DNA of 22,598 nt. Origin: Candidatus Helarchaeota archaeon (lineage in GTDB: Archaea > Asgardarchaeota > Lokiarchaeia > Helarchaeales > HEL-GB-A). The stretch spans positions 1 through 22,598 of the forward strand of contig JAEOSY010000304.1 in NCBI GenBank assembly GCA_016840125.1, read 5' to 3'. Shown in pieces: positions 1-22,220 of the stretch. A model generated the notes under the pieces. The model ran no database searches, had not been told where the DNA came from, and saw nothing but the letters and a program-made list of their open reading frames with translations. The translations under genes were made by a program, and so were the position numbers. The number at the start of each line of letters is the position of its first letter. Position 1 is the first letter of the stretch.

Positions 1-3000
1 GATTGATTGCCCCTAAGAACACATCATCGTTCGGGATCGTAAAATTGATTTCAAATATATCGCTCCCGAGGTAGGACAGTGAAAGATTATACCAGCTGCT
101 ATCGCTGCGATTGACCGCGAGGTAGCCAGCAAGCGCAGGGTCACTATCCTCCACATCGGTAATGGTAACATTGACGCGGATGGTCTCATTCCTATTCATG
201 GGAGTTGTATCATTTGAAATAATGTTGGAAATTTCAGGTTGGTTGTTTAATACATTCACCGCGCCCAGCACGGTTTCCACCCAACCTCCTTCCGTGTCAT
301 TTGCCCTGACAATAACGTTCATTGACCCCAAATACGGATCCGTTGTCGGGATTGTGAAGTTGTACTCAAAGAAATCACTTCCTAAGTACGTCATCGAGAT
401 ATTATTCCACCCGCCCGAAGGAATGTCAATACAGAGGAACACGGTTAGGTTTGGATTCAGATCTTCTACATCGACTACGGTGGCGTTGGCCCAGATCATT
501 TCATCTCGGAACATAGAGGGGGTCTGGTTCGTTGCGGTGTCCGAAATGACGGGTGCATTATTCTGCACGATGACCGTGGCGACTAGAGACGAGAGAGTAT
601 AACCAGAATCGGAATCTGTAGCATAAATATACAGATTGATTGCCCCTAAGAACACATCATCATTCGGGATCGTAAAATTAATTTCAAAAATGTCACTCCC
701 AAGGTAGGTGAGGGAGACATTATACCAGCTGCTATCACTCCGATTGACCGCGAGGTAACCCTGGAGTGCAGGGTCAATGTCCTCTACATCGGTGATGGTC
801 GCATTAACACGAATAGTTTCATTGCGGTTCATGGGAGTGGTATCATTTGAAATAATGTTGGAAATTTCGGGCTGGTTGTTTAATACATTCACCGCGCCCA
901 ACACGGTTTCCACCCAACCTCCTTCCGTGTCATTTGCCCTGACAATAACGTTCATCGACCCCAAATAAGGATCCGTAGTCGGGATCGTGAAGTTGTACTC
1001 AAAGAAATCACTTCCTAAGTACATCATGGAGATATTATTCCATCCTCCTGAAGGAATATCAATGCAGAGGAACACGGTCAGGTTTGGATTCAGATCTTCT
1101 ACATCGACTACAGTTGCGTTTGCCCAGATCATTTCATCTCGGAACATAGAGGGGGTCTGGTTCGTTGCCGTGGCTGAAATGACGGGTGCATTATTCTGAA
1201 CAACGATTGTAGCGATAAGAGATGAGAGGATGTAACCCGAATCGGAATCCGTAGCGTAAATATACAGGTTTATTGCCCCTAAGAAGATATCATCGTTCGG
1301 GATCGTAAAGTTAATTTCAAATACGTCACTCCCAAGGTATGTGAGGGAGACGTTATACCAGCTGCTATCGCTGCGATTGACCGCGAGGTAACCCTGAAGT
1401 GCAGGGTCAATGTCCTCTACATCTGTGATGGTCGCATTAACACGAATAGTTTCATTGCGGTTCATGGGAGTGGTATCATTTGAAGCAATGTTGGAAATTT
1501 CGGGCTGGTTGTTGAATACATTCACCGCGCCCAACACGGTTTCCACCCAGCCTCCTTCCGTGTCATTTGCTCTTATAATAACGTTCATTGACCCCAAATA
1601 AGGATCTGTTGTCGGGATCGTGAAATTGTACTCAAAGAAATCACTTCCTAAATACATCATGGAGATATTATTCCACCCGCCTGAAGGAATATCAATGCAG
1701 AGGAACACGGTCAGGTTTGGATTCAGGTCCTCCACATCTATTACGGTGGCGTTGGCCCAGATCATTTCATCTCGGAACATAGAGGGGGTCTGGTTCGTTG
1801 CCGTGGCTGAAATGACGGGTGCATTATTCTGAACAACGATTGTAGCGATAAGAGATGAGAGGGTGTAACCCGAATCGGAATCTGTGGCGTGTATATAGAG
1901 ATTGATCGCCCCTAAGAACACGTCATCGTTCGGGATGGTGAAGTTGATTTCAAAGACGTCACTCCCTAGGTACGTCAGGGAGAGGTTGTACCAGCTGCTA
2001 TCGCTGCGATTCACCGCGAGATAGCCTTGAAGTGCAGGGTCGGTATCCTCCACATCTGTGATGGTCACATTAACCCGAATGGTCTCATTTCTATTCATAG
2101 GAGTCGTATCATTTGAAATAATGTTTGAAATTTCAGGTTGGTTGTTTAATACATTCACCGCGCCAAGCACTGTTTCCACCCAGCCTCCTTCCGTGTCATT
2201 TGCTCTTATAATAACGTTCATTGACCCCAAATAAGGATCTGTTGTCGGGATCGTGAAATTGTACTCAAAGAAATCACTTCCTAAATACGTCATGGAGATA
2301 TTATTCCACCCGCCTGAAGGAATATCAATGCAGAGGAACACGGTCAGGTTTGGATTCAGGTCCTCCACATCTATTACGGTGGCGTTGGTCCAGATCATTT
2401 CATTCCGGTACATTGAGGGGGTCTGGTTCGTTGCGGTGTCCGAAATGACGGGCGCGTTATTCTGGACAATGACCGTTGCGACTAGAGCTGAAAGGGTGTA
2501 ACCCGAGTCGGAATCCGTTGCGTGTATATAGAGATTGATCGCCCCTAAGAACACGTCATCGTTCGGGATCGTAAAGTTAATTTCAAAGACGTCACTCCCT
2601 AGGTACGTCAGGGAGAGGTTGTACCAGCTGCTATCGCTGCGATTCACCGCGAGGTAACCCTGAAGTGCTGGATCGGTATCCTCCACATCTGTGATGGTTA
2701 CATTAACGCGAATGGTTTCATTTCTATTCATCGGAGTCGTATCGTTTGAAATAATGTTTGAAATTTCGGGCTGGTTGTTCAATACATTCACCGCGCCCAG
2801 CACGGTTTCCATCCACCCCCCATCACTATCATTTCCCCTTATAATAACGTTCATCGATCCCAAGTAAGGATCTGTTGTTGGGATTGTAAAGTTATATTCG
2901 AAGAAGTCGCTTCCTAAATACGTCATGGAGATATTATTCCACCCGCCTGAGGGAATATCAATACAGAGGAACACGGTTAGGTTTGGATTCAGATCTTCTA

Positions 3001-3799
3001 TATCTATTACGGTGGCATTAGCCCAGATCACTTCATTGCGGTACATGGAAGGGGTCTGGTTCGTTGCTGTGTCAGAAATGACGGGTATATTATTCTGAAC
3101 AATGATTGTTGCGACTAGGGATGAAAGGGTGTAACCCGAGTCGGAATCTGTCGCGTGTATATAAAGATTTATTGCATCTAAGAAAATGTCATCATTCGGG
3201 ATCGTGAAGTTAATTTCAAAGACATCGCTACCCAAGTAGGTTAGGGAGAGGTTATACCAGCTGCTATCACTGCGATTAACTGCAAGGTAACTTGCAAGTG
3301 CAGGATCGGTGTCCTCCACATCTGTGATAGTGACATTAATTCGAATGGTCTCATTGCGGTTCATGGGAGTCGTATCGTTTGAAATAATATTGGAAATTTC
3401 GGGCTGGTTGTTCAACACATTCACCCCCCCTAAAACGGTTTCCAACCACCCCCCATCACTGTCATTTGCTCTGATTATGACATTCATAGACCCTATATAC
3501 GAATCCGTAGTGGGAATCGTAAAATTATACTCGAAAAAGTTACTCCCTAAATAAGTCATAGAGATGTTGTTCCACCCCCCTAAGGGGATGTCAATACAGA
3601 GGAAAGCGGTCAGGTTAGGGTTCAGATCTTCTATATCTACTACGGTTGCGTTGGCCCAGATCGTCTGATCCCGATACATGGTTGCCGTTTGATTTGTTAG
3701 TTCTCCAGATATTGCGGGCTGGTTATTCAGCACGGTGATAGTTCCTAGAGAATTTTCTACCCAACCATTATCAGTATCATTTGCCCGAATATATACTTG
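1..3799 (-). repeat. Six tandem 633-bp units (211 aa each) inside the giant surface gene
   Basis: The marker sequence GATTGATTGCCCCTAAGAA or close variants recurs at 1, 634, 1267, 1900, 2533 and 3166, exactly 633 bases apart, so 1-3799 holds six units and the array continues off the left edge. In a stretch of about 250 bases the units starting at 634 and 1267 differ at fewer than about 20 positions. The unit nearest the gene start (from 3166) is more diverged. Each unit encodes two different Ig/cadherin-like domains of about 105 residues, one around NRNETIRVNVTITDVED and one around MIWANATVVDVEDLNPN. The A and B domains differ from each other far more than A from A or B from B, so the duplicated block is the two-domain pair. 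Confidence 0.93.
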
Positions 3800-6754
3800 G
3801 ATCTGTCCTAAGTATGTATCATCATTCGGAATAGTGAAAAAGTAATTGAAAAGGTTCCCGGTCGGTGCCCCCATCGAGATGTTATTCCATGAGGTTTCTT
3901 CCACGAGATACACGCAAAGATATCCTGTCAAGCTGGGGTGGGTATCCTCCACATCTGTTATCGTAGCGTTCGCCCAGATGGTCTGATTCCGGTACATGGT
4001 AGCAGTTTGATTGGAGAGGGGAGTTGTTATTATAGGTTGATTATTTTGAACGGTGATAGTTCCAACCGACGTTTCAACCCAACCATCATCTGAATCATTC
4101 GCCCGAATTGTTAATTGAATTTGCCCGAGGTAGGTATCATCTGTTGGAATAGTATAGTTATAATCAAAAATATTACCTGCTTCCACTGTCATGGAAAAAT
4201 TCGTCCATACTATTTCCTCAACGCGATAAACACATAAATAAACTGATAAATCGGGAGGGGTGTCCTCTAAATCTGTTACTGTCGCGTTAATCCATATAGT
4301 TTGATCACGATTCATAGTGGCAGTATGATTCGATGTTAACGTAGAAATTACGGGAGGATCGTTCAAAATTTGGATTGATAGGGTTGTTTCGTTGTAGTCC
4401 GCATCCCATCTAGTCCCATTTACAATAATACTAAAATTATAAGGCAGGGTAACCTTTGGTCCCCACTCCGCTCCATCAAAAGTCCAAGAATAATTCCCAC
4501 TTCCAACATCAATCATTTGATACATGGTATTATTATATAGTACCGTGAGGTTGACATTCGCATTAGGTAGCCCTTCCGTATGGTAAATATCCTCGAAATA
4601 GGCTGTAATATCCATCGTTTGATTTGAATAAATAGATGTAAACGTTAATTGGCTCTGATTCAAGAATATGGTAAGATTACTGGGGCGTTTTTGTAGGTTA
4701 ATGGTGACATTTTCTGAATGGGATTGGTACCATGTTTTATTACAGTTTAAGAGGATGTAATACACTCCATCAGTCCATGAAGTGGTATCGAACGTTCGAT
4801 TGTAGTACCCTACTCCAAGATTCTCGAGATCGAGGGCAGCCCAGTCGACCCAAAGCCCCCCGGTGGCATTCTCCAACCGATAATAGGCTTCCGTCGTGGA
4901 AATTCCCCCTTTCAAGGGAGTGAAGGTATTATTGAAGAAGGAGGTCACGTTGATTTCATCTCCAATATACCGATCTAGAACCGTGTTGGTGGTATATTCA
5001 GACGAATCTACGTAGGAGGTTAATTCCGTTGGGTACCTGACTTCAATTGTGGTTTCATTCAATCCCACATGGGTACCGTTATACCAGACAACCCGGATCG
5101 TATAGGTACCATTGCTTTGGGTGGAGCCTGCGATTGTCCAATCAGTAAAACTCATGACCCCTCCAACGGCTGTCGTTGAATTGGGTGGATTATGGTCGGT
5201 ATAATTGGAAATTTGGGTTGGATTATAAACGGTAAGATTTCCATTTCCTCCCACGACAGAATTTCCCCCATTATCCTTAATCGAAGCATTTACTCGAATA
5301 ATATCAGTTATATTGAAAATCCCATCCGTATTCAGAGTATAAGTACCTGCATTATTTTCTTCGAGGGTGAGAGTTTTGACGAAATTATTAGAAGTTATAT
5401 TAAGGAACCATGCATTACTTGATTCAGAGAGATTCTCCATGGATAAGATCCTAGACGAAGGAGTCCAAAACCAATCATTAAAAGTAGTTTCAGGAGTCCC
5501 GGTCCTGTTATAAATCTGTAAGGGTTCCCATTGACTTGGGAGTGAGATATTAATAGCTTGGTTTGTATAACCACTGGGGAAGCTGTTTGACCAATTCACA
5601 TGCCAAGTCGCGTTTATATTTTTCTGAGCAAAAAAGTATGGCGTGGCAGTTATAGTTTTATTATATTCCCCTTGCCAATTAACATCATAAGTGATAGCCC
5701 AATCTGAGTCGACATCTATCGTCAAGTTGCCTGAGGCGCTAGTATACCGATCAACATTGGTCCAATTCCCATTTCCATAGCCACTATCGGTCACAGCGGA
5801 ACCATTGACCGTCATTCCAACTTGGGAAGGTTGAGGGGCATTTGCCGTGCCTGGTGCTTGCAATCCTATTTTCATATCATGATCAAACGCGGAAACACTC
5901 GCCGCCCAGCTGGCTCCTGAGGTTCCCCACGCATAAGCCTCATCAGCACTATCATTATTTATTCCCACGGATGGATCATTCCATCGCTTCCAATAGATAG
6001 TAGCGGCTTGAAAACTCCCTTGAGCTCGGAAATAAAACAAGAAAAAGGTGTTATCATACGTAGCGGAGGTGTTGAGGTATAAATTCGTAAAATTAAACGT
6101 GAGATATACATAACCTGCTGTTTCTGTGAGTTCATAATTCGCAGTTGTTAACCAACCTGTAACCGGAGAGCCAGCTGGCTTCGGGGTTCCACTATCATTA
6201 ATTGCTGAATAAATACGAACTGTGATATCAAAAGGGTCATCGCTATCAACAGAAGGCCATAATTGAGTGGTGACATTTGTTAAATAACAGCTGGCATTGA
6301 CTCGGAATGATTGAGAAAAGGCAGGGCTAAGTTGAGTGAATACTGTCGAAGCAGCTGCATCCTCAATTACTTTTGTGATATTTGGAGCATATATATTAGT
6401 AAAGTTAAGAAACATAGAGGATGTACCCCATGAAACATCTTGTGGAACGGCGAAATTGAAGTTTTGGGCATTAGAGAGACCTGTTTCACTACCTAATTTT
6501 TGAGCAAATAACGTTAGATCTCTGTTATTACCAGCAGCACTTAAAATGGATTGATATGGGTTACCTACTGCCTCATCTTCGGGATTTAGGATAAAATTAT
6601 TGTCAACGGGGTCTTTCTGGGGGGGGGCATCCAAGGGCTGCAAAGGAATAAGTACCAGAATGAACATGACTAATAAAACAAAGAGAACTATCGAATTACG
6701 AGAAGATAATGGATGAAATCTGGACTTTTTTCTTACAATATGACTTCCCGACAT
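1..6754 (-). CDS. Giant secreted Ig/cadherin-like repeat surface protein (C-terminus beyond window)
   Basis: The reading frame opens at ATG 6754-6752 and stays open to the left edge, giving at least 2251 codons without a stop. The start precedes a basic stretch and a hydrophobic segment (about residues 20-40, core NSIVLFVLLVMFILVLIP), which fits a signal peptide. Residues about 100-575 match the ectodomain of the divergent neighbour at 7091; shared motifs include SGTPKPAGS, IYWK-WNDPSVGI and GLNETTI. Several diverged beta-sandwich-like modules follow (about 600-985), then six 211-residue units to the edge. The sequence is dense in N-x-S/T sequons (such as NATV, NLTV, NFTI), as expected for a glycosylated surface adhesin or S-layer-associated protein. 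A run of nine C in the coding strand lies just after the signal peptide. No transmembrane anchor is visible because the C-terminus is missing. The function as an adhesin is inferred. The small plus-strand frames here are shadows of the repeats. Confidence 0.9.
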   Translation of the reverse strand, partial: MSGSHIVRKKSRFHPLSSRNSIVLFVLLVMFILVLIPLQPLDAPPQKDPVDNNFILNPEDEAVGNPYQSILSAAGNNRDLTLFAQKLGSETGLSNAQNFNFAVPQDVSWGTSSMFLNFTNIYAPNITKVIEDAAASTVFTQLSPAFSQSFRVNASCYLTNVTTQLWPSVDSDDPFDITVRIYSAINDSGTPKPAGSPVTGWLTTANYELTETAGYVYLTFNFTNLYLNTSATYDNTFFLFYFRAQGSFQAATIYWKRWNDPSVGINNDSADEAYAWGTSGASWAASVSAFDHDMKIGLQAPGTANAPQPSQVGMTVNGSAVTDSGYGNGNWTNVDRYTSASGNLTIDVDSDWAITYDVNWQGEYNKTITATPYFFAQKNINATWHVNWSNSFPSGYTNQAINISLPSQWEPLQIYNRTGTPETTFNDWFWTPSSRILSMENLSESSNAWFLNITSNNFVKTLTLEENNAGTYTLNTDGIFNITDIIRVNASIKDNGGNSVVGGNGNLTVYNPTQISNYTDHNPPNSTTAVGGVMSFTDWTIAGSTQSNGTYTIRVVWYNGTHVGLNETTIEVRYPTELTSYVDSSEYTTNTVLDRYIGDEINVTSFFNNTFTPLKGGISTTEAYYRLENATGGLWVDWAALDLENLGVGYYNRTFDTTSWTDGVYYILLNCNKTWYQSHSENVTINLQKRPSNLTIFLNQSQLTFTSIYSNQTMDITAYFEDIYHTEGLPNANVNLTVLYNNTMYQMIDVGSGNYSWTFDGAEWGPKVTLPYNFSIIVNGTRWDADYNETTLSIQILNDPPVISTLTSNHTATMNRDQTIWINATVTDLEDTPPDLSVYLCVYRVEEIVWTNFSMTVEAGNIFDYNYTIPTDDTYLGQIQLTIRANDSDDGWVETSVGTITVQNNQPIITTPLSNQTATMYRNQTIWANATITDVEDTHPSLTGYLCVYLVEETSWNNISMGAPTGNLFNYFFTIPNDDTYLGQIQVYIRANDTDNGWVENSLGTITVLNNQPAISGELTNQTATMYRDQTIWANATVVDIEDLNPNLTAFLCIDIPLGGWNNISMTYLGSNFFEYNFTIPTTDSYIGSMNVIIRANDSDGGWLETVLGGVNVLNNQPEISNIISNDTTPMNRNETIRINVTITDVEDTDPALASYLAVNRSDSSWYNLSLTYLGSDVFEINFTIPNDDIFLDAINLYIHATDSDSGYTLSSLVATIIVQNNIPVISDTATNQTPSMYRNEVIWANATVIDIEDLNPNLTVFLCIDIPSGGWNNISMTYLGSDFFEYNFTIPTTDPYLGSMNVIIRGNDSDGGWMETVLGAVNVLNNQPEISNIISNDTTPMNRNETIRVNVTITDVEDTDPALQGYLAVNRSDSSWYNLSLTYLGSDVFEINFTIPNDDVFLGAINLYIHATDSDSGYTLSALVATVIVQNNAPVISDTATNQTPSMYRNEMIWTNATVIDVEDLNPNLTVFLCIDIPSGGWNNISMTYLGSDFFEYNFTIPTTDPYLGSMNVIIRANDTEGGWVETVLGAVNVLNNQPEISNIISNDTTPMNRNETIRVNVTITDVEDTDPALQGYLAVNRSDSSWYNLSLTYLGSDVFEINFTIPNDDVFLGAINLYIHATDSDSGYTLSSLIATIVVQNNAPVISATATNQTPSMFRDEMIWANATVIDVEDLNPNLTVFLCIDIPSGGWNNISMMYLGSDFFEYNFTIPTTDPYLGSMNVIIRANDTEGGWVETVLGAVNVFNNQPEISNIASNDTTPMNRNETIRVNATITDVEDIDPALQGYLAVNRSDSSWYNVSLTYLGSDVFEINFTIPNDDIFLGAINLYIYATDSDSGYILSSLIATIVVQNNAPVISATATNQTPSMFRDEMIWANATVVDVEDLNPNLTVFLCIDIPSGGWNNISMMYLGSDFFEYNFTIPTTDPYLGSMNVIVRANDTEGGWVETVLGAVNVLNNQPEISNIISNDTTPMNRNETIRVNATITDVEDIDPALQGYLAVNRSDSSWYNVSLTYLGSDIFEINFTIPNDDVFLGAINLYIYATDSDSGYTLSSLVATVIVQNNAPVISDTATNQTPSMFRDEMIWANATVVDVEDLNPNLTVFLCIDIPSGGWNNISMTYLGSDFFEYNFTIPTTDPYLGSMNVIVRANDTEGGWVETVLGAVNVLNNQPEISNIISNDTTPMNRNETIRVNVTITDVEDSDPALAGYLAVNRSDSSWYNLSLSYLGSDIFEINFTIPNDDVFLGAIN
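3800..4360 (-). repeat. Diverged Ig/cadherin-like repeat modules preceding the 633-bp array
   Basis: Two further modules carry the same landmarks as the array, such as MNRDQTIWINATVTDLED, IPTDDTYLGQI and RANDSDDGWVE. They are strongly diverged at the DNA level, with more A/T at third positions. They look like older copies of the domain from which the homogeneous array was amplified. Confidence 0.75.
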
Positions 6755-7090
6755 GGTAATTTCACTCACTTTAATGAATGGGGGGATTATTAATTAAATA
6801 ACACGTTTGATATATGATTATACAAGTTATGAAGAAATGTATTGAGATCTTATTTTGTCGTAATTAGACATAATTATCTTTTGGCATGGAATCTCATACA
6901 TTTATAAAATAGGACCTATGAAGTCTCGTATCAAAAAAATAATAAGACAAAAAGAAATTAAAAATCTTAAAGGATTACTATTAAAAACGCTTGAGATTGT
7001 TTCAAACCATTTTCGTGAAATTATGTAGTATAGTAATTTTTAAGAATGATCTATTCGAAAATTGATTAAGTTTATGGATGGTTTAATGAG
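6755..7090. promoter_or_regulatory. Divergent intergenic region between the two surface-protein genes
   Basis: This 336-base AT-rich gap separates two head-to-head genes and must hold both promoters. On the minus side TTAATTAAATAA around 6789-6800 is a possible TATA element. On the plus side AT-rich stretches lie near 7030-7050, and GGATGGT at 7077-7083 is a plausible ribosome binding site seven bases before ATG 7091. A possible 36-codon frame, ATG 6918 to TAG 7028, is rich in lysine and leucine (start MKSRIKKIIRQKEIKNLKG). It has no convincing ribosome binding site, so I do not call it a gene. Confidence 0.55.
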
Positions 7091-10000
7091 ATGAGAAAAA
7101 ATAATCTATTTTCTGGATTTCTTTCGTATTTGCTAATAATTATGTTCATTTTTACTACTATTTTACCTGTAATTCCTCTCTGGAATACTTCTAACCTTAA
7201 TAATGAAAACATTATTTTGGAACAACAAGAGGCTAGCGCCTATTATATTAGTGCTAATTGGATAAATCAGCCTGTTATAGTTGATGGGAATATCACTTCC
7301 CTGCAAGAATGGAGTGATGCGACTGTTCTAAATTTGTGGTCTCCCAAATACTCCTTAAATGCTACACTTTATTTTAAGAACAATGCAACTCACTTAGCAA
7401 TTCTTTGTGATGCGTATGGTGATGAGACTCAAGACACAGTAGGTCCTGCTTTGGATCAACTAGATCACTTGGATATGGGATTTGACACAGGAAATGATGA
7501 TACTCAAACAGATGCACAAGAAGATTCCTTCTCATTACTCGCGAATGGAACCGTCCTTCAATGGGAGTACAATAGCACTGCCAGCGATTATAGTCAAGTA
7601 GCTTTGGATAATGTGGCTGGGGGTGTAACCTTTACGGCGAGTGCTCTTAATACAAATAATCACGAAATTTATGAATTTTTAATTAGTCTTAACACTATTT
7701 ACGCAAATGCGGGTGAAAAAGTTGGGCTTACAAGTCCTTTTATAAACTTACTCACCCTTGGATGGCCTTATGACTCTGCAGGGCAATTTAATACATACCC
7801 CCTCACTGCAACTTACTCAGACCTAACTTCTTGGGGCACCTTGAAATTAGCTGAACAATCACCTACTGCTACTATAACGGGACTAGGTGATAATTTAACA
7901 GTTCAATTCCATTGTGAAAATAATGGCACTACTTCGGGGCGCACCGAGAGCTCAGACTTCAACGTATCTATCCCTAGTGGGAATTGGAATCAAAATTGGG
8001 TGGATATCGATTTAACTAATATCTATGCACCAAACGATACTGACCAAATTGAAGATGCTTCTGCCTCCTCTGTTTTTGAAGAGCTCAGTCCAGCACATGC
8101 TCAATCATTCCGTGTTAATGCGAGCTGTTTATTACAGAATTTCACAGTACAACTCTGGCCTAGCACAGATAGTGATGATCCAGAAGATATCCTTGTACGG
8201 GTCTATCCTGCGATTGATAGCAGCGGAACTCCAAAACCAGCTGGTTCACTTTTGACCGGTTGGCTATTCAGCCAAGCCATTGAGCTGACAGAAACTCCCG
8301 GGTGGACTTATTTAACCTTTAATACCTCGGACTTATTCTTAAACATATCAGCCACTTATGATAAGACCTTTTTCATTATGCTGTTTGAAGATCCTGGTAG
8401 CTTTCAAAATGCTGTTATTTACTGGAAAAAGTGGAATGATCCCTCAGTTGGAATCAGTAATGATAGTAAGGATGAAGCTTATTTATGGGAGTCATCGGGG
8501 ACAAACTGGGCTGCTGTTACATCAGCTTTCGATATGGATATGAAAGTGGCGATAGCTCCCCTCTCCAATACACCTTTACCATCTCAAGTTGGAATAAAAA
8601 TTAATGGATCTATTGTGACTGATAATGGTATCGGTCAGGGCAAATGGAATTCGAGCCAAATTTTCACAGGCAGTAATGTTCTCTTTGATGTTCAATCGAA
8701 TTGGACGATTACTTATGATGTTGATTGGGGTACTAGTTATGAACTGACTGGTGTTGGAACTGTTGATTATCAGGCGGGACTGGCAGCGTTGGTCGATTGG
8801 AACGTAACTACCTCCATTACCTTCCCAACAACATTTCATTCCTTAGAGATTAATATGTCCATTCCACTTGACTGGAACGCAAGTTCCCCTACGGTATTAA
8901 ATGGGAGCAGTCTACCAGCTCTTGGAACTTATCTTCCTGCCAATTATATCTGGTATCCCTCCCAAGGGATCGTGCAAATAAAAAATATGAGCGAACCTCT
9001 AAATTACTGGAGGTTGGATTGTGCTGGATATAATTATTTGACTGGTGTTTCTCTAGAAAAAAGAGTAGGGTTGAGCTATGTAGGAATTTCTCTAGGAGAA
9101 ACAGTAAATATTACCGATACTCTTCGAATCAATGGAACTGTCGAGGATAATTTAGGTAACCCCATAACAGAGCTTAATTCTGGGAACTTGACGGTTTATA
9201 CGGCTTCACGGACTGCTCACACTGAGAATAATGTGGATGTAACAAGCGGCATTTTAAGTTTCACCGATTGGCTAATTTCAATGGATACGGACGAACTTGG
9301 GGTATACACAATTCGTCTTATCTGGTTCAACGGTCTGGAAGTCGGATTGAATGAAACTACAATCCAGGTGGTGATACCAACTGATGCTATTAAAATAATG
9401 CCTACTGAACAATACTTTTTCATTGGAGCAGGGGTTAATGAAATCAATGTCACAATCCTATACAATTGCACGTATTGGGCACAGCGAGGCGGTATTTCAA
9501 ATGTCAATGCCTCATTTCGAGTTTGGAACTATTCGACCATGTGGTGGGATTGGACTAATTTAGATCAAGAGGCTGTAGAATTTGGATATTACAACTACAC
9601 CTTTGATTATTCCTCATGGACAAATGGTACCTACACAGTTCAAATTAATTTGAACAAAACTGGATATCAATCTCAAGAAATCAACTATACAGTTTTTCTC
9701 GTATTTAATACGGGTATAGAACTCGTAGCACCTCCATCAAATCAAATAACATACGATTATCCTGATAACCTGACAATCCAAGTGAATTATACTAAGGCAA
9801 CTGGCGAAGAAATACTGACAGCTAGTGTATTATTGACTATCAATGGTAGTGCCCCCTTGGCTTTAAGCGTTGTTAGCGATTTATACGTAATCCAATTAAA
9901 TAGTACTGATTATGGCGTTGGATTTTATAACATCACCATAACTGCATCCTTATTAGGATACTTCACTCAGCAAATAAACATCAATTGGACCATCCAAGCA

Positions 10001-10936
10001 GCTACAACTAATTATATCCTCTTTGTGAATGGCACTTATGTTCTAGTTGGGGACTTTTGGGACTTCCATTATAATGATGTAATGAATATTTCAATCTTTT
10101 ACAATGATACAGTACATGGTGTACCAATAACAGGAGCACCTCTCAATTTAACACTTCTTGGGGTCGGTATCCAAGCCATTACAAATCAAGCCAATGGCTG
10201 GTATAATTGGATTATCAACACTTCAACCAGATCTGCTGGCCTCTGGAATTTCTCCTTATCAGTTGAGAAGTCAAACTACCAGAATCACACCCAAACTATT
10301 GAAATATATACGCGATATAACACAACTCTTGCATGGATTCGGGCGCCCCCAACTTCAGCTCGACCTGGTGACACACTTGGCGGAACGGTGAATCCAATCG
10401 AAGTAAATTTCACCCGTTTTGGCATTCCAGTTGCCGGACAGAATATAACATTCAGAATAACCACCGATAATGAAGTGTATAATTACTCTGTAAACACGGC
10501 AGCCAATGGATCTGCGAAATTCAATGAAGAATACATTATCAAGTCAGACGTAACAACGTTAAATATAGAAATTATTTATAACGGCAATACTACCTATTTC
10601 TCCTCATTAAGAAGCTACTCAATTACTATTATTCCAGGCGGAATCTTGGAACAATATTGGTGGGTGTTCATCCTTCTTGTGGCTCTTGTAGCCGTTGTTG
10701 CTATGGTGGTACGGTCTCGGAGGAAAGCAAGAGTAGCGAAAGAGGCAGCGAAGCAGGAGATCCTCACGTCTTTCCAGGATGTGACAAAGATTTTGCACCT
10801 TGTGGTCATTCATAAAGGGACGGGCGCAGATATTTTTGATTATAAGATTCAAGAACGGTTGGATCCCACCTTGCTGGCTGGATTTATTCAAGCGGTAAAG
10901 GAGTTTGGGAAACAACTAGATCAGGAGGGTCAATAA
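7091..10936 (+). CDS. Type I membrane surface protein: CBM9-like and Ig-like ectodomain, one TM helix, half longin-like cytosolic tail
   Basis: The protein has 1281 residues. A signal peptide covers about residues 6-33 (core LLIIMFIFTTILPVIPL). Residues about 50-255 resemble a CBM9/DOMON-like beta-sandwich (VDGNITSLQEWSDA, DHLDMGFDTGNDD). Residues about 290-765 are homologous to the divergent gene at 1-6754. Ig-like modules rich in sequons follow to about 1180. A single transmembrane helix at about 1189-1207 is followed by RSRRK, so the last 74 residues should be cytosolic. That tail is predicted as helix, strand (ILHLVVIHKG), strand (DIFDYKI), helix (PTLLAGFIQAVKEFGK), which matches the first half of a longin/roadblock-like fold common in archaeal regulatory proteins (inference). 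The stop TAA is followed at once, in the same frame, by the ATG of the next gene. ATG 7091 is chosen for the GGATGGT motif seven bases upstream. The ligand is unknown. Confidence 0.9.
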   Translation: MRKNNLFSGFLSYLLIIMFIFTTILPVIPLWNTSNLNNENIILEQQEASAYYISANWINQPVIVDGNITSLQEWSDATVLNLWSPKYSLNATLYFKNNATHLAILCDAYGDETQDTVGPALDQLDHLDMGFDTGNDDTQTDAQEDSFSLLANGTVLQWEYNSTASDYSQVALDNVAGGVTFTASALNTNNHEIYEFLISLNTIYANAGEKVGLTSPFINLLTLGWPYDSAGQFNTYPLTATYSDLTSWGTLKLAEQSPTATITGLGDNLTVQFHCENNGTTSGRTESSDFNVSIPSGNWNQNWVDIDLTNIYAPNDTDQIEDASASSVFEELSPAHAQSFRVNASCLLQNFTVQLWPSTDSDDPEDILVRVYPAIDSSGTPKPAGSLLTGWLFSQAIELTETPGWTYLTFNTSDLFLNISATYDKTFFIMLFEDPGSFQNAVIYWKKWNDPSVGISNDSKDEAYLWESSGTNWAAVTSAFDMDMKVAIAPLSNTPLPSQVGIKINGSIVTDNGIGQGKWNSSQIFTGSNVLFDVQSNWTITYDVDWGTSYELTGVGTVDYQAGLAALVDWNVTTSITFPTTFHSLEINMSIPLDWNASSPTVLNGSSLPALGTYLPANYIWYPSQGIVQIKNMSEPLNYWRLDCAGYNYLTGVSLEKRVGLSYVGISLGETVNITDTLRINGTVEDNLGNPITELNSGNLTVYTASRTAHTENNVDVTSGILSFTDWLISMDTDELGVYTIRLIWFNGLEVGLNETTIQVVIPTDAIKIMPTEQYFFIGAGVNEINVTILYNCTYWAQRGGISNVNASFRVWNYSTMWWDWTNLDQEAVEFGYYNYTFDYSSWTNGTYTVQINLNKTGYQSQEINYTVFLVFNTGIELVAPPSNQITYDYPDNLTIQVNYTKATGEEILTASVLLTINGSAPLALSVVSDLYVIQLNSTDYGVGFYNITITASLLGYFTQQININWTIQAATTNYILFVNGTYVLVGDFWDFHYNDVMNISIFYNDTVHGVPITGAPLNLTLLGVGIQAITNQANGWYNWIINTSTRSAGLWNFSLSVEKSNYQNHTQTIEIYTRYNTTLAWIRAPPTSARPGDTLGGTVNPIEVNFTRFGIPVAGQNITFRITTDNEVYNYSVNTAANGSAKFNEEYIIKSDVTTLNIEIIYNGNTTYFSSLRSYSITIIPGGILEQYWWVFILLVALVAVVAMVVRSRRKARVAKEAAKQEILTSFQDVTKILHLVVIHKGTGADIFDYKIQERLDPTLLAGFIQAVKEFGKQLDQEGQ
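10924..10930 (+). promoter_or_regulatory. Shine-Dalgarno AGGAGGG inside the 3' end of the surface gene
   Basis: AGGAGGG lies seven bases before ATG 10937 and within the last codons of the upstream gene, whose TAA touches that ATG. This supports independent but translationally coupled initiation of the second protein, and argues against the upstream stop being a sequencing error in one long gene. Confidence 0.8.
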
Positions 10937-12208
10937 ATGGCGGATGAATATGAACCAGAATATATCCCTTTTGCTGCACCAGTAGCTCCTGAAGATAAAA
11001 AGAAGAAAAAGAAGGAAAAAAAGGAAAAGAAGGAAAAACCAAAAAGGGAAGAACCAGTAAGAGAACCCGATCGAGAACCTCCAAAAAAAGGAAAATTTCC
11101 TCAAAAAGTCACTGTTGAGCAGATTAAAACCTATACTTGGCAAATGGAACGCTTTCAGATAATGTTAGCGGATAGTGAAGATGTTCTTGTTGCGTTGATG
11201 TTGGACTCTGCCCCGTCTGAACCTATTCGGGAAGCTCTTTTAAAGTTCACTTCAGAGTTTGAGAATAAATTTGCAACTGAGATTGAAAACTTTCGTGGAA
11301 ATGTTCAGTGGTTCAGACCTGCAAACGAAATCGCCGATGACTCATTTAATATGTTTCTAATGCGACCCCAATGCCTCCCACTTTCTCTGGCCGCATTGAA
11401 AGAAATCAATCTTACTCCCACTGAATCGAAGGTAGTCCGAATTGCTCAAGAAGTGGCGAAAAAGAGTGGCTATTTCTTCTTAGCTACTTTACTGAATGAG
11501 GTTTTACAACGTCATAAAATAGCCCGTGAAGTGGTACTCAAGACTTTTTTCACCCTCCATCGAAAGGGGGCATTTATTCCAATTCACATCCAAGATGTGT
11601 CAATAGAAGTCGAAAAGAGGGAATTATGGGAACAGGTTATTTGTGTCGATGGGCTTTCGGGTGAAGAATGCGATATACTTTTAGAAGACTTATTAGAATC
11701 TAATGAAGAGAGCAGAATAAGCTTACTTGCCAAGCTCTCTGATTTTAAGAAGAAGCAACGTGGAAATTTACTCCGTGAAGAAGTGGTGAAACGACGCCAA
11801 GTTCGCAAGGAACGGGATGTACTATTCAAACAAGTTGATCAGTACCTCAAAGCGAATGATTATAATTCAGTCGTCTATTTATTTGATCAAATCGTCCAAC
11901 TCTCCCTGCAAATAGGGGAAGACACGGTGGCTCAAGAATTAACGAACCGTGCAGAGGTCTTCCGGACTCAATTAACTCAAATGTCACAGCGGATCCCGGC
12001 ACTCCGTAGTGCACGGAATGAAGCGTTAAACAATGCGGAAATGCTCGAATTGAGTGGGCGATATGAAGAGGCAGCTGTGCAATTTGAATACGCAGCAAGT
12101 GTTTCTAATGAAGTTGGCGAAATAGATAAAGCCAAAGAGTTTATCAGCCAAGCAAATCGCTTAAGAAGTTTATCTGAGTTAGCTAGCCTTCGAGAGAAAC
12201 TTAGATAA
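10937..12208 (+). CDS. Cytosolic partner protein: second half of a longin-like domain, winged-helix-like segment, TPR-like helices
   Basis: The 423-residue product has no signal peptide or membrane segment. Residues 21-52 are extremely lysine/glutamate rich. Residues 71-137 read as strand (ERFQIMLAD), strand (VLVALMLDS) and a long helix (EPIREALLKFTSEFENKF), ending near NVQWFRPANEIADDSF. This is the usual second half of the longin/roadblock-like domain whose first half appears to sit at the C-terminus of the preceding membrane protein (inference). Residues about 155-215 look like a winged-helix unit (TPTESKVVRIAQEVAKKSG, LKTFFTLHRKGAFIPI). The rest is helical, with two TPR-like pairs (GRYEEAAVQFEYAASVSNE is the clearest). 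It is in the same frame as, and directly abutting, the upstream gene and is probably cotranscribed. A role as a cytosolic adaptor for the surface receptor is inferred, not shown. Confidence 0.88.
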   Translation: MADEYEPEYIPFAAPVAPEDKKKKKKEKKEKKEKPKREEPVREPDREPPKKGKFPQKVTVEQIKTYTWQMERFQIMLADSEDVLVALMLDSAPSEPIREALLKFTSEFENKFATEIENFRGNVQWFRPANEIADDSFNMFLMRPQCLPLSLAALKEINLTPTESKVVRIAQEVAKKSGYFFLATLLNEVLQRHKIAREVVLKTFFTLHRKGAFIPIHIQDVSIEVEKRELWEQVICVDGLSGEECDILLEDLLESNEESRISLLAKLSDFKKKQRGNLLREEVVKRRQVRKERDVLFKQVDQYLKANDYNSVVYLFDQIVQLSLQIGEDTVAQELTNRAEVFRTQLTQMSQRIPALRSARNEALNNAEMLELSGRYEEAAVQFEYAASVSNEVGEIDKAKEFISQANRLRSLSELASLREKLR

Positions 12209-12388: not shown

Positions 12389-13819
12389 ATGCCATGGGAG
12401 GATTCACGACGAAAAGAACTGGTTTTTAAGAAAACCAATAACAATCAAGAGATTATTTTAAAGTCTGTTGAAGAAGACGATGGACGAACTACTATCAGCT
12501 TTGCATTAAAGAGTAATAATTTAATAACGGAAATAGAATCACTTAGCTCAGATGACTGGAAATCGATTTTAGAGTTCCTTACCATTACTAGTACTAAAAT
12601 TTTCGAGGTAATAAATGAAAAACAAGTAATAATCATTGCCGAACAAGTCGCAGAAGCGGGCGTAGAACCTAGTGCAGCGCCAGTGGCAACACCAATAGCG
12701 GAACCTGTAGCAGAACCAATAACAGAGCCAATAGCAGAGTCAGTCACAGAACAAACTAAAGAGCCAACCGTAGAACCTCTCGATGAGCCAGTTGCGGAAC
12801 CAGTTGCGGAACCAGTTGCGGAACCAGTTGCGGAACCAGTTGCGGAGCCAGTTGCGGAGCCAGTTGCGGAATCGGTTGCTGACACGATCATTGAACCTGA
12901 AGGCGAAATGGTTACAGACCAACTCACGAAGGCAGCTGAAGAACTCGCAATGGAATCCAGTATTGAAACAGAGGCAGGACAAACCCCTGAGCCTGCGACC
13001 GCTGTAGCTACAGTAAAGTTAGATACAATAGAAGCCGAACCAGTTTTTGATGAAACGTTTGATGAACTTGCTGCTGAATTGGAAAAGGTACCCGAGGTAT
13101 TTACTCCGGGAGTTCCAGTAGTTCCTTCGGAAGATGTTATTACAGAGATCCCCTCAAAACCTGTAATACAAGAACCAGTTTCTTTGGATGAATCCATATT
13201 ACAATCGGCAGCAGAAGTGACGAGCGAAAAACTCTCCACAGAAGATAGTTCAGCTACTGAATCAAATGTTTCGTTAACTTCAAAACCCGAACCTATTACT
13301 TTTGAACCTATAATCCCTGACCAATCTGCTGATGATGTCCCAATTGATTTGGATAATGTATCCGCTCCTCCAACCATTCCTAAAATTTCAGAACCATCAC
13401 CGCAAGAGCTAGAATCTCTGCTAACCCCCATTCTAAAACCGAAAATAAACTCCATCGAATCGGAGACTTTGGCTACGGAGAACAAGATAGATGAACCTCT
13501 AGCCGACCAAACAGACGTTTCTCAGGAAACAGAGGTTGAATCATCAATTCCAGCAACTAATTTGATAGAAGAAGATCACGATGTCGGGGAAGAATTTGAA
13601 ATTCCTCAAGAACCAGTTATGTTGAATAAAGCCGACGAATTACTAAGCACAGATGAAAAAGAAGCGAAAATTATTGCTGCTATGGAGGAAGTCGCCGCTT
13701 TAATGCCGCCAGGTCCTGCAAAAAAGTTTGTTGAAGAAATGATGCTAAAACGCACAACAGCTGTTAATGAAAATCATCCCCGGATTCCGCAAATCAACCC
13801 AGAAACCGAAAACAACTAA
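12389..13819 (+). CDS. Acidic low-complexity protein with EPVA tandem repeats, unknown function
   Basis: I do not recognise this gene. ATG 12389 (MPWEDSRRKEL, 476 residues) is preferred over the in-frame TTG at 12380 because GAGGT at 12376-12380 then sits eight bases upstream. Residues 1 to about 85 look like a small alpha/beta domain (IILKSVEEDDGRTTISFALK). The middle 300 or so residues are proline/glutamate/alanine/valine rich, with imperfect EPxAEP repeats and a perfect core of VAEP units, and are almost certainly disordered. The last 70 or so residues return to ordinary composition and look helical (EEVAALMPPGPAKKFVEEMM), so the protein may be two small domains joined by a long acidic tether. 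No signal peptide or membrane helix is visible. It follows the split-domain pair after a 180-base gap with its own terminator and probably its own promoter. It converges on the por operon with 27 bases between stops. Confidence 0.8.
   Translation: MPWEDSRRKELVFKKTNNNQEIILKSVEEDDGRTTISFALKSNNLITEIESLSSDDWKSILEFLTITSTKIFEVINEKQVIIIAEQVAEAGVEPSAAPVATPIAEPVAEPITEPIAESVTEQTKEPTVEPLDEPVAEPVAEPVAEPVAEPVAEPVAEPVAESVADTIIEPEGEMVTDQLTKAAEELAMESSIETEAGQTPEPATAVATVKLDTIEAEPVFDETFDELAAELEKVPEVFTPGVPVVPSEDVITEIPSKPVIQEPVSLDESILQSAAEVTSEKLSTEDSSATESNVSLTSKPEPITFEPIIPDQSADDVPIDLDNVSAPPTIPKISEPSPQELESLLTPILKPKINSIESETLATENKIDEPLADQTDVSQETEVESSIPATNLIEEDHDVGEEFEIPQEPVMLNKADELLSTDEKEAKIIAAMEEVAALMPPGPAKKFVEEMMLKRTTAVNENHPRIPQINPETENN
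12791..12874 (+). repeat. 12-bp minisatellite GTTGCGGARCCA, seven units, encoding VAEP
   Basis: Seven consecutive 12-base units start at 12791, 12803, 12815, 12827, 12839, 12851 and 12863. The first four are identical, two carry one silent A-to-G change, and the last ends TCG instead of CCA. They encode six VAEP plus one VAES in the disordered middle of the acidic protein. Copy number could change in frame by slippage. Confidence 0.92.
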
Positions 13820-18302: not shown

Positions 18303-19019
18303 TTAAATTCTTTCTGGCGGAGTACCGGGTGTCTTCATCTCGTCGTTCTTACATAAACATATGTATAGATGTCCATATTTCTGGTAACAGATTATGCAAA
18401 TCGGAATGATTAAAGGAGGATCTGTTAAGGATTTGGAAGCATAATTTATTTCTTCCCCTCCGAACTCATCTTCCAGGTGTGAGAGTTCTTGATCTGCTTC
18501 CTTATCCAAGTCGTGGTCATCTACAGACGTTCCAGCGTAAATTTCACCAACTTGGTCGATTTCAGCCATCGCAGCGTCGGATTCAGCAGCAACCCGCTCG
18601 GCTTTTTCTATACTGACATCTTTTTGGATACTCTTCATTTCGACTAAACCCATTTTGATTGTATCGTCGAGACTTTTTACATCGTTTGCTTGGTCAATCA
18701 TAGTTATCCTATTGTGAAGGCGGTCAGAATACTCGATGTATCGCTCAGCGTATTTATTTAGCAGTATCCACTTTTTTAGGTGTTGTTTTGCAGCCGGTTT
18801 ATTGACAATTCGATAGTACTGCTTCGCTTTATAGTAATCCATTTGCGCTCTTTTTTTGAACGCGCGTTCTCGTAATTCTAACTTACTGATCATCTGTCGA
18901 AGTCGTGCAATTGTGGACTCCTTCTCCTTTTGCTTGTGTTCGGGGAGGATTTTCTTCGTATCCGGCAATTCATCCCTTCCAACTACTAATCCTAGTAGTC
19001 TTTTCAACAATTTAAACAT
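18303..19019 (-). CDS. ESCRT-III/Snf7-family membrane-remodelling protein with Cys-rich tail
   Basis: ESCRT-III proteins polymerise on membranes for fission and division, and Asgard archaea have eukaryote-like versions. The 238-residue product shows the family layout. It has a short amphipathic, basic N-terminus (MFKLLKRLLGLVVGR), then a long basic helical hairpin (about 28-105, with KESTIARLRQMISKLELRE and KPAAKQHLKKWILLNKYAE), then helices turning acidic (MIDQANDVKSLDDTIKMGLVEM, then DQVGEIYAG and DKEADQELSHLEDEF). The EADQEL-HLEDEF segment is where Snf7-type proteins have their acidic late helix. The last 45 or so residues are unusual: Cys208, Cys211, His217, Cys221 and Cys223, ending in KTPGTPPERI. 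That could be a small metal site or an AAA-ATPase-binding tail (inference). No Vps4-like gene is in the window. ATG 19019 is the first good start. Confidence 0.85.
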   Translation of the reverse strand: MFKLLKRLLGLVVGRDELPDTKKILPEHKQKEKESTIARLRQMISKLELRERAFKKRAQMDYYKAKQYYRIVNKPAAKQHLKKWILLNKYAERYIEYSDRLHNRITMIDQANDVKSLDDTIKMGLVEMKSIQKDVSIEKAERVAAESDAAMAEIDQVGEIYAGTSVDDHDLDKEADQELSHLEDEFGGEEINYASKSLTDPPLIIPICIICYQKYGHLYICLCKNDEMKTPGTPPERI

Positions 19020-19474: not shown

Positions 19475-21013
19475 ATGGATTTAAATAGATCGAACGCGTA
19501 TACTTCTCTGACTTTAGAGATGAACGTACCTTTTGGGATTCTGACGATGCTTACTACGACTATTTTTCGCTTGCACCCCTCTGCAGCGCAAGTATCCAAG
19601 CTCAACGAGATCTTCACCATTTACAACCAGGTCAAACGGAAAGGGTACAATCTCCTCTTCAAGGGCGAGCTTCAGATTCAACGGAAATTGATGCAAGCAT
19701 GTCATAATAACCCCTACGTAAATACGATTCTAATAGAGAACAAGACGAAGTTGAAGCAGCAGCAGACATGGCTGAAGAAAAATGGAAAATATTTGAAGCA
19801 TAAAATTGAAGTCGTCAAGGGGACGATTAACCGAGCAAAAGATCGAGATCCGAGAGATCGAAGGTTGCAAGGATTGTACGCGCGTCTATCCTCATTAGAA
19901 TATAGGTTAAGGAATCTAAAGTTGAGACCAATCGTATTTGGGACGAAACACCTATTTCGTGAACGGGTTCGAAAGAAGGTCTCACGGGATGCTTTCAGGA
20001 TCCAACGGGATGCATCCTTCGGGTGCATTGGAAAGGCGCAACAAGGACTGAAGAACCTCAACTTGAAGATCTTACCCACAAAATACGTGAAAGTGCGGAC
20101 ATTCAGTAAAAAAACAGGAAATAAATGGCTACTAATCCCGTTATTGGTGAATAGGAAACAATCATCCATTTTTCGGGAGATTTTACAAGTAGATAAATAC
20201 ACAGTCGTTGTCAAACGGAAAGTAATGAAGGGAGAAATTCGATATTACGCTCACATATCTTACGCGACCCCCGTCTCAGCAATCCAGCACAGCTTTGTAA
20301 ATGGGGCGATCGGATTGGATTTCAATCATAACTTCCTCGCCTTGGTGAATGTAGATTGTGCGGGACAGTTTTTAAGCTATCAAACCATCGGATTTCGGAA
20401 TTTACACTCCTACCGGAAAGGGCGACGGGATGATTACGCGAGCTTCAAGCTCGATAAAGTGGTAAATTATTGTTTGAATAAGGGGAAGGGATTGGTTATT
20501 GAAGATCTCTCCTTTAACTTATCTTTTTCATATAATAAGAACCGGAATCGTAAATTAAATCAATTAAAAACCTCAATGCTCCCTTTATTGGAGCGCAAAT
20601 GCGCCCGGTATGGGATTGCGGTGAAAAAAGTGCATCCGGCATACACCTCAATCATTGGAGTATTGAAATATGCATGGTCATATAACTTATCCGATCACAT
20701 TTTAGCAAGTTATGTGATAGCGCGAAGAGGTCTTGGGTTCATGGAAGACCTTCCAGCCTGTTATAAGCGGGTGCTCGCACAAGTCGGGGGCGTTCTAAAA
20801 CCCCGTTTGAAACCGAGCAGTCCCTACTATCAATGGGCGCAACTCTACGACCTTTTCAAGCAATACTGGGTAACACCCTTCAGATCTCCAGATCCTATGA
20901 CTAACCTCAAGAGGAACCTCTTGATCGTCCTCGACGCTACGCTGGATGGTTTGAACCCAACACTGGGCGTACCGCCTGATAACCTTAGGGCGGGTCTACT
21001 CGCATATGGGTAG
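19475..21013 (+). CDS. tnpB: TnpB-related RuvC nuclease of an IS605/IS1341-like element, without zinc finger
   Basis: TnpB proteins are RNA-guided DNA nucleases encoded by IS200/IS605-type elements. This 512-residue product has the RuvC-like pieces in order: GAIGLDFNHNF with Asp282, GKGLVIEDLSF with Glu343, and NLSDHILASYVIARRGLGF with probable Asp407, preceded by HPAYTSIIGVLKYAW. The CxxC pairs that normally form a zinc finger between the second and third motifs are absent, as in the TnpB-related branch. The N-terminal 270 residues are basic and helical, and about 90 residues follow the last RuvC motif. No tnpA is nearby, so mobility would need a transposase in trans. The gene is intact, and its composition is more GC-rich than its surroundings. 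A second, convergent copy begins at the right edge. ATG 19475 is chosen as the first Met; no good ribosome binding site is seen. Confidence 0.85.
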   Translation: MDLNRSNAYTSLTLEMNVPFGILTMLTTTIFRLHPSAAQVSKLNEIFTIYNQVKRKGYNLLFKGELQIQRKLMQACHNNPYVNTILIENKTKLKQQQTWLKKNGKYLKHKIEVVKGTINRAKDRDPRDRRLQGLYARLSSLEYRLRNLKLRPIVFGTKHLFRERVRKKVSRDAFRIQRDASFGCIGKAQQGLKNLNLKILPTKYVKVRTFSKKTGNKWLLIPLLVNRKQSSIFREILQVDKYTVVVKRKVMKGEIRYYAHISYATPVSAIQHSFVNGAIGLDFNHNFLALVNVDCAGQFLSYQTIGFRNLHSYRKGRRDDYASFKLDKVVNYCLNKGKGLVIEDLSFNLSFSYNKNRNRKLNQLKTSMLPLLERKCARYGIAVKKVHPAYTSIIGVLKYAWSYNLSDHILASYVIARRGLGFMEDLPACYKRVLAQVGGVLKPRLKPSSPYYQWAQLYDLFKQYWVTPFRSPDPMTNLKRNLLIVLDATLDGLNPTLGVPPDNLRAGLLAYG

Positions 21014-21086: not shown

Positions 21087-21554
21087 ATGGAATTAAAGGT
21101 TACAAAAGAATACAGTGAAATAGTAAATCTTTTAGAAACCTTGGAAAAAAACATCGATACCGAAATTGATGTGATGCAGGAGGAATCCAAAACAACATTT
21201 TCCTTAGATATTACAAAGGAAATTGTGCAATACGCAACAGACCTAGTAAAAATGAAGATATCGATATTTTTCAAGGACGCAATTCAAGATTTCGACCGTT
21301 TCACTATAATACTCGATTGTTCGGAAGTTGAACTTAACATGAGCGAAGTTGAGGCGATAATTCGGCGAGTTGCCCGGCAAATGAAAAATAATATTCCTGA
21401 AGGTGCAGATCCCGAAAACATCCAAATTGAACTGAAAAAATATTTGAGAAAATTGATATGCAGAATCCCTTCAAAATGGACTAAACCTGTTGTACAAAAG
21501 TTTTTAACACGTTTCGAGGAAACTTTAAGTCAATTAGGAGTTATCGTTAGTTAA
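21087..21554 (+). CDS. Unrecognised 155-residue acidic helical protein
   Basis: I do not recognise this gene. ATG 21087 (MELKVTKEYSEI) is preferred over the in-frame TTG 21057 because GGTG lies about eight bases upstream and the TATA box then has normal spacing. The protein looks alpha/beta: an N-terminal helix (YSEIVNLLETLEKNIDTE), two strands (KTTFSLDI, FDRFTIILDCSEVEL) and several helices (MSEVEAIIRRVARQMKNN, PVVQKFLTRFEETLSQLG). It has no membrane segment or metal motif. Its last 21 bases overlap the 3' end of the riboflavin kinase gene on the other strand. The location between two transposon copies says little about its role. Confidence 0.75.
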   Translation: MELKVTKEYSEIVNLLETLEKNIDTEIDVMQEESKTTFSLDITKEIVQYATDLVKMKISIFFKDAIQDFDRFTIILDCSEVELNMSEVEAIIRRVARQMKNNIPEGADPENIQIELKKYLRKLICRIPSKWTKPVVQKFLTRFEETLSQLGVIVS

Positions 21555-22220
21555 TTCCACGCTTACCTTTAATTTATCCCCATCCTGCAAATTTAACTTC
21601 TTTCGAAGAAACTCTGGGCTAATTATTTCCAGAATATTGTCTCCATAATGCGTACGCTTGATTAATAAAAGTGCTCCTGGTAATGAGTCATTTATCTTTA
21701 TTCGAAAGCACTTTACTGCTCCAAAAGTCCTACTCTGATCTTTAAATCCTTCAATTCTAACACCTGAGTAGGAATCCGACTCCAAAACTCTTCTAATCTG
21801 TAAATCGGGTTGCTTTATTAGTCTAATATTAAGAGTTCCAGCATAAGGTGCAAAGCCCAATTTCTCCTCAAATTGGTCCCTATACCCCTTCTGTGTTACA
21901 TAATACGCTCCTTCTCCCATCCCTGAAAAAACTTCTCCTTCTAGATTCAATTCCCGTGGTTGTTTTGAAAATATACTATTTAATAGAAGGAAAATTTTAT
22001 GAAGCATCTCTAAGCCTTTATTAGTAATCTTTATTGACTGTCCTTTATGGGATATTATCCGGGTTATTAATTCTTTTCTTTCTAAATCTTTCAATCTCCT
22101 CGATGCCGTCTGTTGTGAGGCTCCAATCTTTTCCGCAAACTCGATTGACGAAATTTCAATTATTTCATATGCCCCTAAATTTGCTAGAGTGAATAAAGAA
22201 AACCACAATGACTCCGACAT
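21534..22220 (-). CDS. ribK: CTP-dependent riboflavin kinase with N-terminal winged-helix regulator domain
   Basis: Archaeal riboflavin kinase makes FMN from riboflavin using CTP. When fused to an HTH domain it also acts as the regulator RbkR. The 228-residue product has a winged helix at about 1-85 (IEFAEKIGASQQTASRRLKD, then KELITRIISHKGQSIKITNKG). The kinase domain at about 93-222 has the signature GEVFSGMGEGAYYV, then GFAPYAGTLNIRL (Pro125, Thr129, Asn131 region), then KRTHYGDNILEIISPEFLR and DGDKLKV. ATG 22220 follows GGAAGTG five bases upstream. AT-rich repeats before the gene are candidate autoregulatory sites (inference). FMN supply is a general need and no other rib gene is present. 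The 3' end overlaps the convergent gene by 21 bases. Confidence 0.92.
   Translation of the reverse strand: MSESLWFSLFTLANLGAYEIIEISSIEFAEKIGASQQTASRRLKDLERKELITRIISHKGQSIKITNKGLEMLHKIFLLLNSIFSKQPRELNLEGEVFSGMGEGAYYVTQKGYRDQFEEKLGFAPYAGTLNIRLIKQPDLQIRRVLESDSYSGVRIEGFKDQSRTFGAVKCFRIKINDSLPGALLLIKRTHYGDNILEIISPEFLRKKLNLQDGDKLKVSVELTNDNS

Follow-up and report, generated by a model that had tools for sequence, protein, structure and literature searches.

Where one gene's stop codon touches the start codon of the next, can the two products hold a single protein domain between them? This question is raised by a stretch of 22,598 nucleotides (the window, meaning the whole stretch analyzed; contig JAEOSY010000304.1, positions 1 to 22,598, of the Candidatus Helarchaeota archaeon assembly GCA_016840125.1), in which a surface receptor gene is followed without a gap by the gene of a putative adaptor, here called the partner. 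An earlier note, made from the sequence alone, had read the receptor tail and the first folded part of the partner as pieces of one longin/roadblock-like domain. Longin domains in general are described as platforms for small GTPases, coat or SNARE partners (main text of PMC10933270). By computation, we observed complementary homology of the two halves, their conservation, their grouping in one clade, their presence in non-adjacent genes and a predicted fold that closes. It is highly probable, in our judgment, that a receptor tail and an adaptor derived from a gene fission rebuild a longin domain at the membrane.

Two complementary parts of a longin domain

The receptor open reading frame (ORF; 7091-10936, + strand, 1281 amino acids) encodes a secreted ectodomain, a single membrane helix and, at its C-terminus, the N-terminal half of a longin domain. 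Read by eye, it begins with a signal-like sequence, continues into a long ectodomain rich in Asn and ends, behind the membrane helix and a basic stretch, in a tail of ~60 residues. The helix (YWWVFILLVALVAVVAMVVR, ~10655-10714) and the basic stop-transfer stretch behind it were assigned by eye from sequence and alignment. The longin N-half (strand 1, strand 2 and helix 1; 10790-10933) was delimited with AlphaFold2 and a hidden Markov model (HMM) of fused longin regions. In the AlphaFold2 model of the read-through chain, the tail strands lie at ~10790-10813 and ~10829-10846 and the helix runs from ~10865 to the stop; in the residue numbering of P0037, these strands are 16-23 and 29-34 and the helix is 41-66. 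Sequence and model therefore bear out the receptor end as first described, with a membrane helix, a basic stretch, strand-strand-helix and TAA. The junction was likewise as reported: the TAA (10934-10936) touches the partner ATG with zero gap and in the same frame (10934-10939), and a ribosome-binding-like AGGAGGG (10923-10929) lies within the last receptor codons, seven bases upstream of that ATG.

The partner (10937-12208, + strand, 423 amino acids) starts at the base after the receptor stop. Its N-terminus (10937-11125) has a conserved ..YIPF..P..P motif and then a Lys/Glu-rich linker, and is predicted to be disordered (predicted local distance difference test score, pLDDT, under 50 for residues 1-54 with AlphaFold2 on the partner alone); a 9-bp tandem repeat lies at 10998-11037. 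The longin C-half follows (strands 3, 4 and 5, helix 2 and short helices; 11126-11371, from HMM and AlphaFold2). Modeled alone, the partner has strands at ~11126-11143, 11156-11173 and 11186-11203 and a helix from ~11219, so that three strands precede the long helix and not two, as had been proposed.

To the HMM, built from 60 single-chain rows of which some are the same gene fetched twice, the two proteins matched in complementary parts. Receptor tails covered it only from positions 3-12 to 73-81 (14/14; 7-74 for P0025), and partners only from 70-88 to 162-163 (25/26; residues 65-145 correspond to positions 82-162). The 26th partner, P0023, is a fragment covering 106-162. The first longin half was found in none of the 26 orthologous partners; full longin domains did occur among distant relatives, nearly always fused receptors. 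From the longin match to its end the partner measures 358-359 amino acids, and most repeat-bearing fused rows have ~355-360 after the tail match (375-388 in four fused rows). Given this equal remaining length and the complementary coverage, the partner is best described as the rest of a receptor, with a new start and linker.

The AlphaFold2 model was made from a read-through single chain of tail plus partner, and the best of five models is described. It closes into a longin fold without help from the fused relatives. The strand-strand-helix-strand-strand-strand-helix core is present in tail and partner together and is divided between two ORFs; the partner by itself lacks the first part, and was predicted at lower confidence in its longin half without the tail than with it. 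Neither half is a complete domain, and the proposal of one longin-type domain divided between receptor and neighbor is supported by the HMM halves, the single-chain relatives, the model, the conservation and the clade.

Conservation was highest in the same two regions. Among 12 receptors, mean pairwise identity was 0.86 in the tail, 0.53 in the membrane segment and 0.43 in the last 700 ectodomain residues. Among 12 of the 24 partners, the more divergent ones being left out, it was 0.83 in the longin half, 0.71 in the C-terminal helices, 0.65 in the winged-helix-like segment and 0.52 in the linker. The most conserved part of each protein is thus its longin half, and because these parts are complementary halves of one fold, contact between the two gene products is the best explanation.

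Behind the longin half, the partner has a winged-helix-like segment (11372-11611), suggested by predicted secondary structure and aligned in fused relatives, and a helical region (11612-12205) with TPR/MIT-like helices at the C-terminus, assigned from predicted structure, Pfam and fold matches. These C-terminal helices resemble TPR and MIT bundles, by weak Pfam and middling structure matches. TPR_2 (Pfam) scored in 10/23 partners, all weakly (best expectation value, E, 5.3e-4), and the window's own partner had no TPR match at E 0.1. Foldseek with the partner alone gave no match at E 0.001, and its weaker rows fall in the C-terminal helices. The proposed Ig-like ectodomain was likewise weakly backed (Pfam Big_1, E 0.024 in the window, below the cut-off). 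Neither the receptor nor the partner of the window matched a Pfam or NCBIfam family above cut-off; the receptor relative P0026 carries a precomputed Pfam PF09134 assignment.

Single-chain relatives and the origin of the split

Counting the pair in the window, homology searches matched 24 partners and 12 receptor tails; two further partner orthologues were found in genomes G087 and G088. Named relatives of both proteins come from metagenome-assembled genomes (MAGs) of Helarchaeota or Promethearchaeota, with one pair in a MAG labeled Deferrimicrobium. Both genes seem to lie on five contigs besides the window, because contigs of the same length occur among the hits of both searches, and on three of these consecutive locus tags place them next to each other (ACTSRS_21295/21300, VMV49_07175/07180 and ACFFD2_07130/07135). 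In all 12 receptors of the tail search, the window's included, the stop falls 8 or 9 residues past the conserved Phe-Gly of the helix. Judged from the sequences, this uniform stop position, together with the complementary start of the partner longin match, is more than chance. The receptor C-terminus reads DQ and then E or G in 8/12 relatives, and in the window these codons (10920-10936) form the ribosome-binding-like sequence of the partner; the C-terminal sequence may be kept in adjacent forms because of this double use.

A first profile search of genome contigs with the partner alignment found no relative. We then scanned 227 genomes, from the phylum of a Helarchaeota genome, with profiles from the partner and tail alignments (E 0.001); the partner profile matched in 132/227 genomes and the tail profile in 149/227. 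Only G087 and G088 combine partner orthologues (E<1e-130) with tails (E<1e-24), the next-best matches in the set being 1.8e-29 for the partner and 4.0e-16 for the tail. Among the 30 loci listed for the tail search, 27 continue into the second half in one ORF, two are split (G087 and G088) and one, L140, runs off its contig. Of the 30 loci listed for the partner search, 28 have the two halves joined in a single ORF, and the other two are the partners of G087 and G088. In a separate set of 10 loci, both halves were in one ORF in seven; at L085 the tail was unscored but visible by eye, and at L086 and L090 the match was confined to the helical part. These sets overlap, and some genes are counted more than once. 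Fused and split forms, which the earlier note had proposed to look for in Asgard genomes, were both found among the matches listed.

Further splits were sought in 20 loci (L163-L182), chosen mainly for short open frames or a position at a contig end. Thirteen were single-chain, four (L168, L176, L179 and L180) were cut by a contig end, and L170, judged by eye, was complete but had a diverged first half. At L163 (G011:C90, 1460-3203), a longin receptor is broken inside helix 2 in a frameshift-like manner, real or assembly-derived. At L164 (G088:C62, 2717-3274), an orphan longin second half with a winged-helix-like segment (186 amino acids) lies behind a glycosyltransferase-like ORF, with no first half upstream; it is either a relic or a second split. 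At L087 (G002), a whole longin domain occurs in a 509-residue protein with no evident membrane helix.

A tree was built from 68 rows, of which 14 were split, 23 were fused and had repeats and 31 were shorter fused forms; gene repeats and the short row L088 were excluded. It placed all split rows in one clade (SH-aLRT, an approximate likelihood ratio test, 99) that needs one change. The tree was made by a quick method and is unrooted, with several long fused branches and warnings of long branches meeting. In the split clade, G087 branches outside the tight group that contains the window, as does the pair G088/P0024. Since the other relatives seen have an undivided longin domain, we infer that the split form is derived. 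Gene fission as its origin, raised in the earlier note, is supported by the complementary HMM halves, the single-chain relatives and the single split clade.

In G087 and G088, the halves are not neighbors. The G087 partner (C1:239640-241019) and the half-tail receptor (212907-217619) are co-oriented and 22 kb apart, and the large ORFs between them encode a 6,782-residue adhesin-like and a 283-residue regulator-like protein. The G088 tail is found beside a CoaBC-like gene at the end of a contig, which truncates the receptor, and the partner is on another contig between aldolase-like and ADP-ribosylglycohydrolase-like genes (names by eye). Complete single-chain longin receptors are also present, L185 in G087 and L183 in G088. 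Conservation of the pair as neighbors thus holds in the window and on three or more other contigs, and fails in these two genomes. That both halves persist there although non-adjacent argues for assembly in trans.

The 283-residue regulator-like protein beside the G087 split-tail receptor (C1:218218-219066; L153 and L154) has a partner-like N-terminal motif, RPRR.PR.IPFQKP.IPEDKKKK (62% over 55 residues), on a body from a family with many G087 paralogues. It seems that a partner-type N-terminus was copied from one gene to another.

Assembly at the membrane and its alternatives

The ancestor would have been a single-chain Asgard surface receptor with an ectodomain, a membrane helix, a longin domain, a winged-helix-like segment and helical repeats. 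A single gene fission, cutting the longin domain after helix 1 and before strand 3, would have left the receptor with strand-strand-helix as its cytosolic tail and turned the remaining chain into a soluble adaptor that gained its own start and a charged, disordered linker. Receptor and adaptor would then reconstitute the longin fold non-covalently at the inner face of the membrane, and the receptor tail would serve as a half-domain for docking, keeping the adaptor, with the ligands of the completed longin domain and of the helical repeats, at the receptor. Association of the pair in the cell, and recruitment as its purpose, are likewise inferred. It is possible, though we hold it only tentatively, that completion of the fold works as a trans-assembling lock, which would both dock the adaptor and create a surface for a small GTPase or, via the MIT-like end, for a protein of the endosomal sorting complex required for transport III (ESCRT-III). 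Given the TPR/MIT-like character of the C-terminal helices, the ESCRT link is a lead, no more.

Several observations weigh against such assembly. The mean pLDDT of the five models varied (76.2, 70.4, 65.8, 65.0 and 40.5), and the top Foldseek hit of the best model, Sec22b at E 4.5e-3, did not reach the threshold of 0.001. The fold was modeled as one chain; since the read-through linker raises local concentration, closure of the model is no proof of binding. The alignments for the partner alone and for partner plus tail differ in depth (23 and 14 rows) and length, which bears on the comparison of their confidence. Two copies of one half-domain could also pair with each other, the orphan half at L164 in G088 shows that such pieces can be leftovers, and a strictly co-translational model would not predict the non-neighboring halves of G087 and G088.

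Among other explanations, a regulated switch, in which the half-domains assemble reversibly under ligand, GTPase or linker control, refines assembly in trans rather than competing with it. Separation would free the adaptor from the membrane, the charged linker is retained despite its sequence drift, and separate genes may permit unequal dosage; however, no regulation was seen in the present analysis and strand-strand contacts that are buried tend to be permanent, which leaves a switch doubtful. We consider it unlikely that the halves are fission relics that no longer meet, the tail acting alone (as a homodimer or docking peptide) and the partner half in a new role. The genes are non-adjacent in two lineages and the partner half keeps its predicted three strands and helix when modeled alone, but in each protein the longin half is the best-conserved part, the prediction confidence of the partner half falls without the tail, and both genomes with strong orthologues contain both halves.

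It is highly improbable that partial readthrough of the TAA gives a fused chain, or that one fused gene was divided by an error of assembly or sequencing: the TAA touches the ATG in frame and translation through it yields an open chain of 494 residues from 10724, but the stop position is the same in 12/12 receptors, the partners' longin match begins after helix 1, the aligned partners share a conserved start and charged linker missing from fused rows, a ribosome-binding-like sequence precedes the partner ATG, and the genes are separated by 22 kb and intervening genes (G087) or lie on different contigs (G088). Readthrough, which the earlier note had considered as an occasional event, is rejected as a general mechanism on this separation, and assembly error on the uniform receptor stops, the partner-specific start and linker and the separated genes. 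With the halves in separate genes, the split works, if at all, between separate genes, and readthrough would be at most a local extra.

Known systems, neighboring genes and wider meaning

The closest comparison for the split pair is with single-chain Asgard receptors (L083, L126, L156 and L185), which have the same order of parts, both longin halves by HMM and a similar length past the first half. Shared features are a hydrophobic helix and a basic stretch directly ahead of the longin domain (by eye) and a homologous C-terminal region of ~358 amino acids after helix 1; the single-chain forms differ in being one polypeptide, in which helix 1 leads to strand 3 without a charged linker. Fused relatives scanned (eight in one scan and two in another) had no Pfam or NCBIfam family above cut-off. 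The longin domains of Sec22b, Ykt6, VAMP7, TRAPP and AP sigma/mu are single continuous domains, with 5-14% identity among the matches listed. Neither the longin fold nor longin proteins in Asgard archaea are new. The main text on Asgard longin and roadblock proteins (PMC10933270; PDB 8yqg and 9jue) does not contain the words transmembrane, receptor or split. An ESCRT survey (PMC11188069) mentions, among Vps28-C or steadiness-box proteins, Asgard proteins that combine longin with TPR, Ig-like and helix-turn-helix (HTH)/PCI domains; this set overlaps with the present one, and the accessible part of that text has no split longin. A literature search by title and abstract, covering few subscription journals, found neither a split longin nor this receptor family described.

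In the Alg13/Alg14 glycosyltransferase, too, one protein is divided between a membrane-bound chain and a soluble chain, which come together at the membrane. The Alg13/Alg14 cut falls between two folded domains, whereas that of the split longin falls inside one small domain.

Elsewhere in the window, a divergently transcribed giant repeat protein of at least 2256 amino acids (2-6769, - strand) is open at the window end and contains repeats and a stretch resembling the receptor ectodomain by eye. A Pro/Glu-rich repeat protein adjoins the pair (12389-13816, with 12-bp repeats at 12788-12879); the G087 partner is also adjoined by a similar Pro/Glu-rich repeat gene and a POR cluster (by eye). A Snf7-family ESCRT-III protein (18303-19019, - strand, E 1e-15) is encoded ~6 kb from the pair; this gene and the named relatives of the pair mark the window as Asgard DNA. 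Further along are a TnpB-like ORF (19475-21013; Pfam Cas12f1-like_TNB, E 0.0017, below cut-off) and a CTP-dependent riboflavin kinase domain fused to a MarR-type HTH (21534-22220, - strand).

An intradomain fission kept as two conserved genes, with adjacency dispensable, is unusual, and the present one exposes a wider single-chain receptor family without a Pfam or NCBIfam family above cut-off in our scans. The two half-domains are short (~60 and ~90 residues) and amenable to bench tests. If the trans-assembling lock were true, the domain would exist only where receptor meets adaptor, a natural split-domain signaling device. In the archaea most closely related to eukaryotes, the fission point coincides with the step from surface receptor to cytosolic adaptor, which suggests that Asgard surface proteins signal or recruit via longin, the fold that organizes GTPases, SNAREs and coats in eukaryotic traffic.
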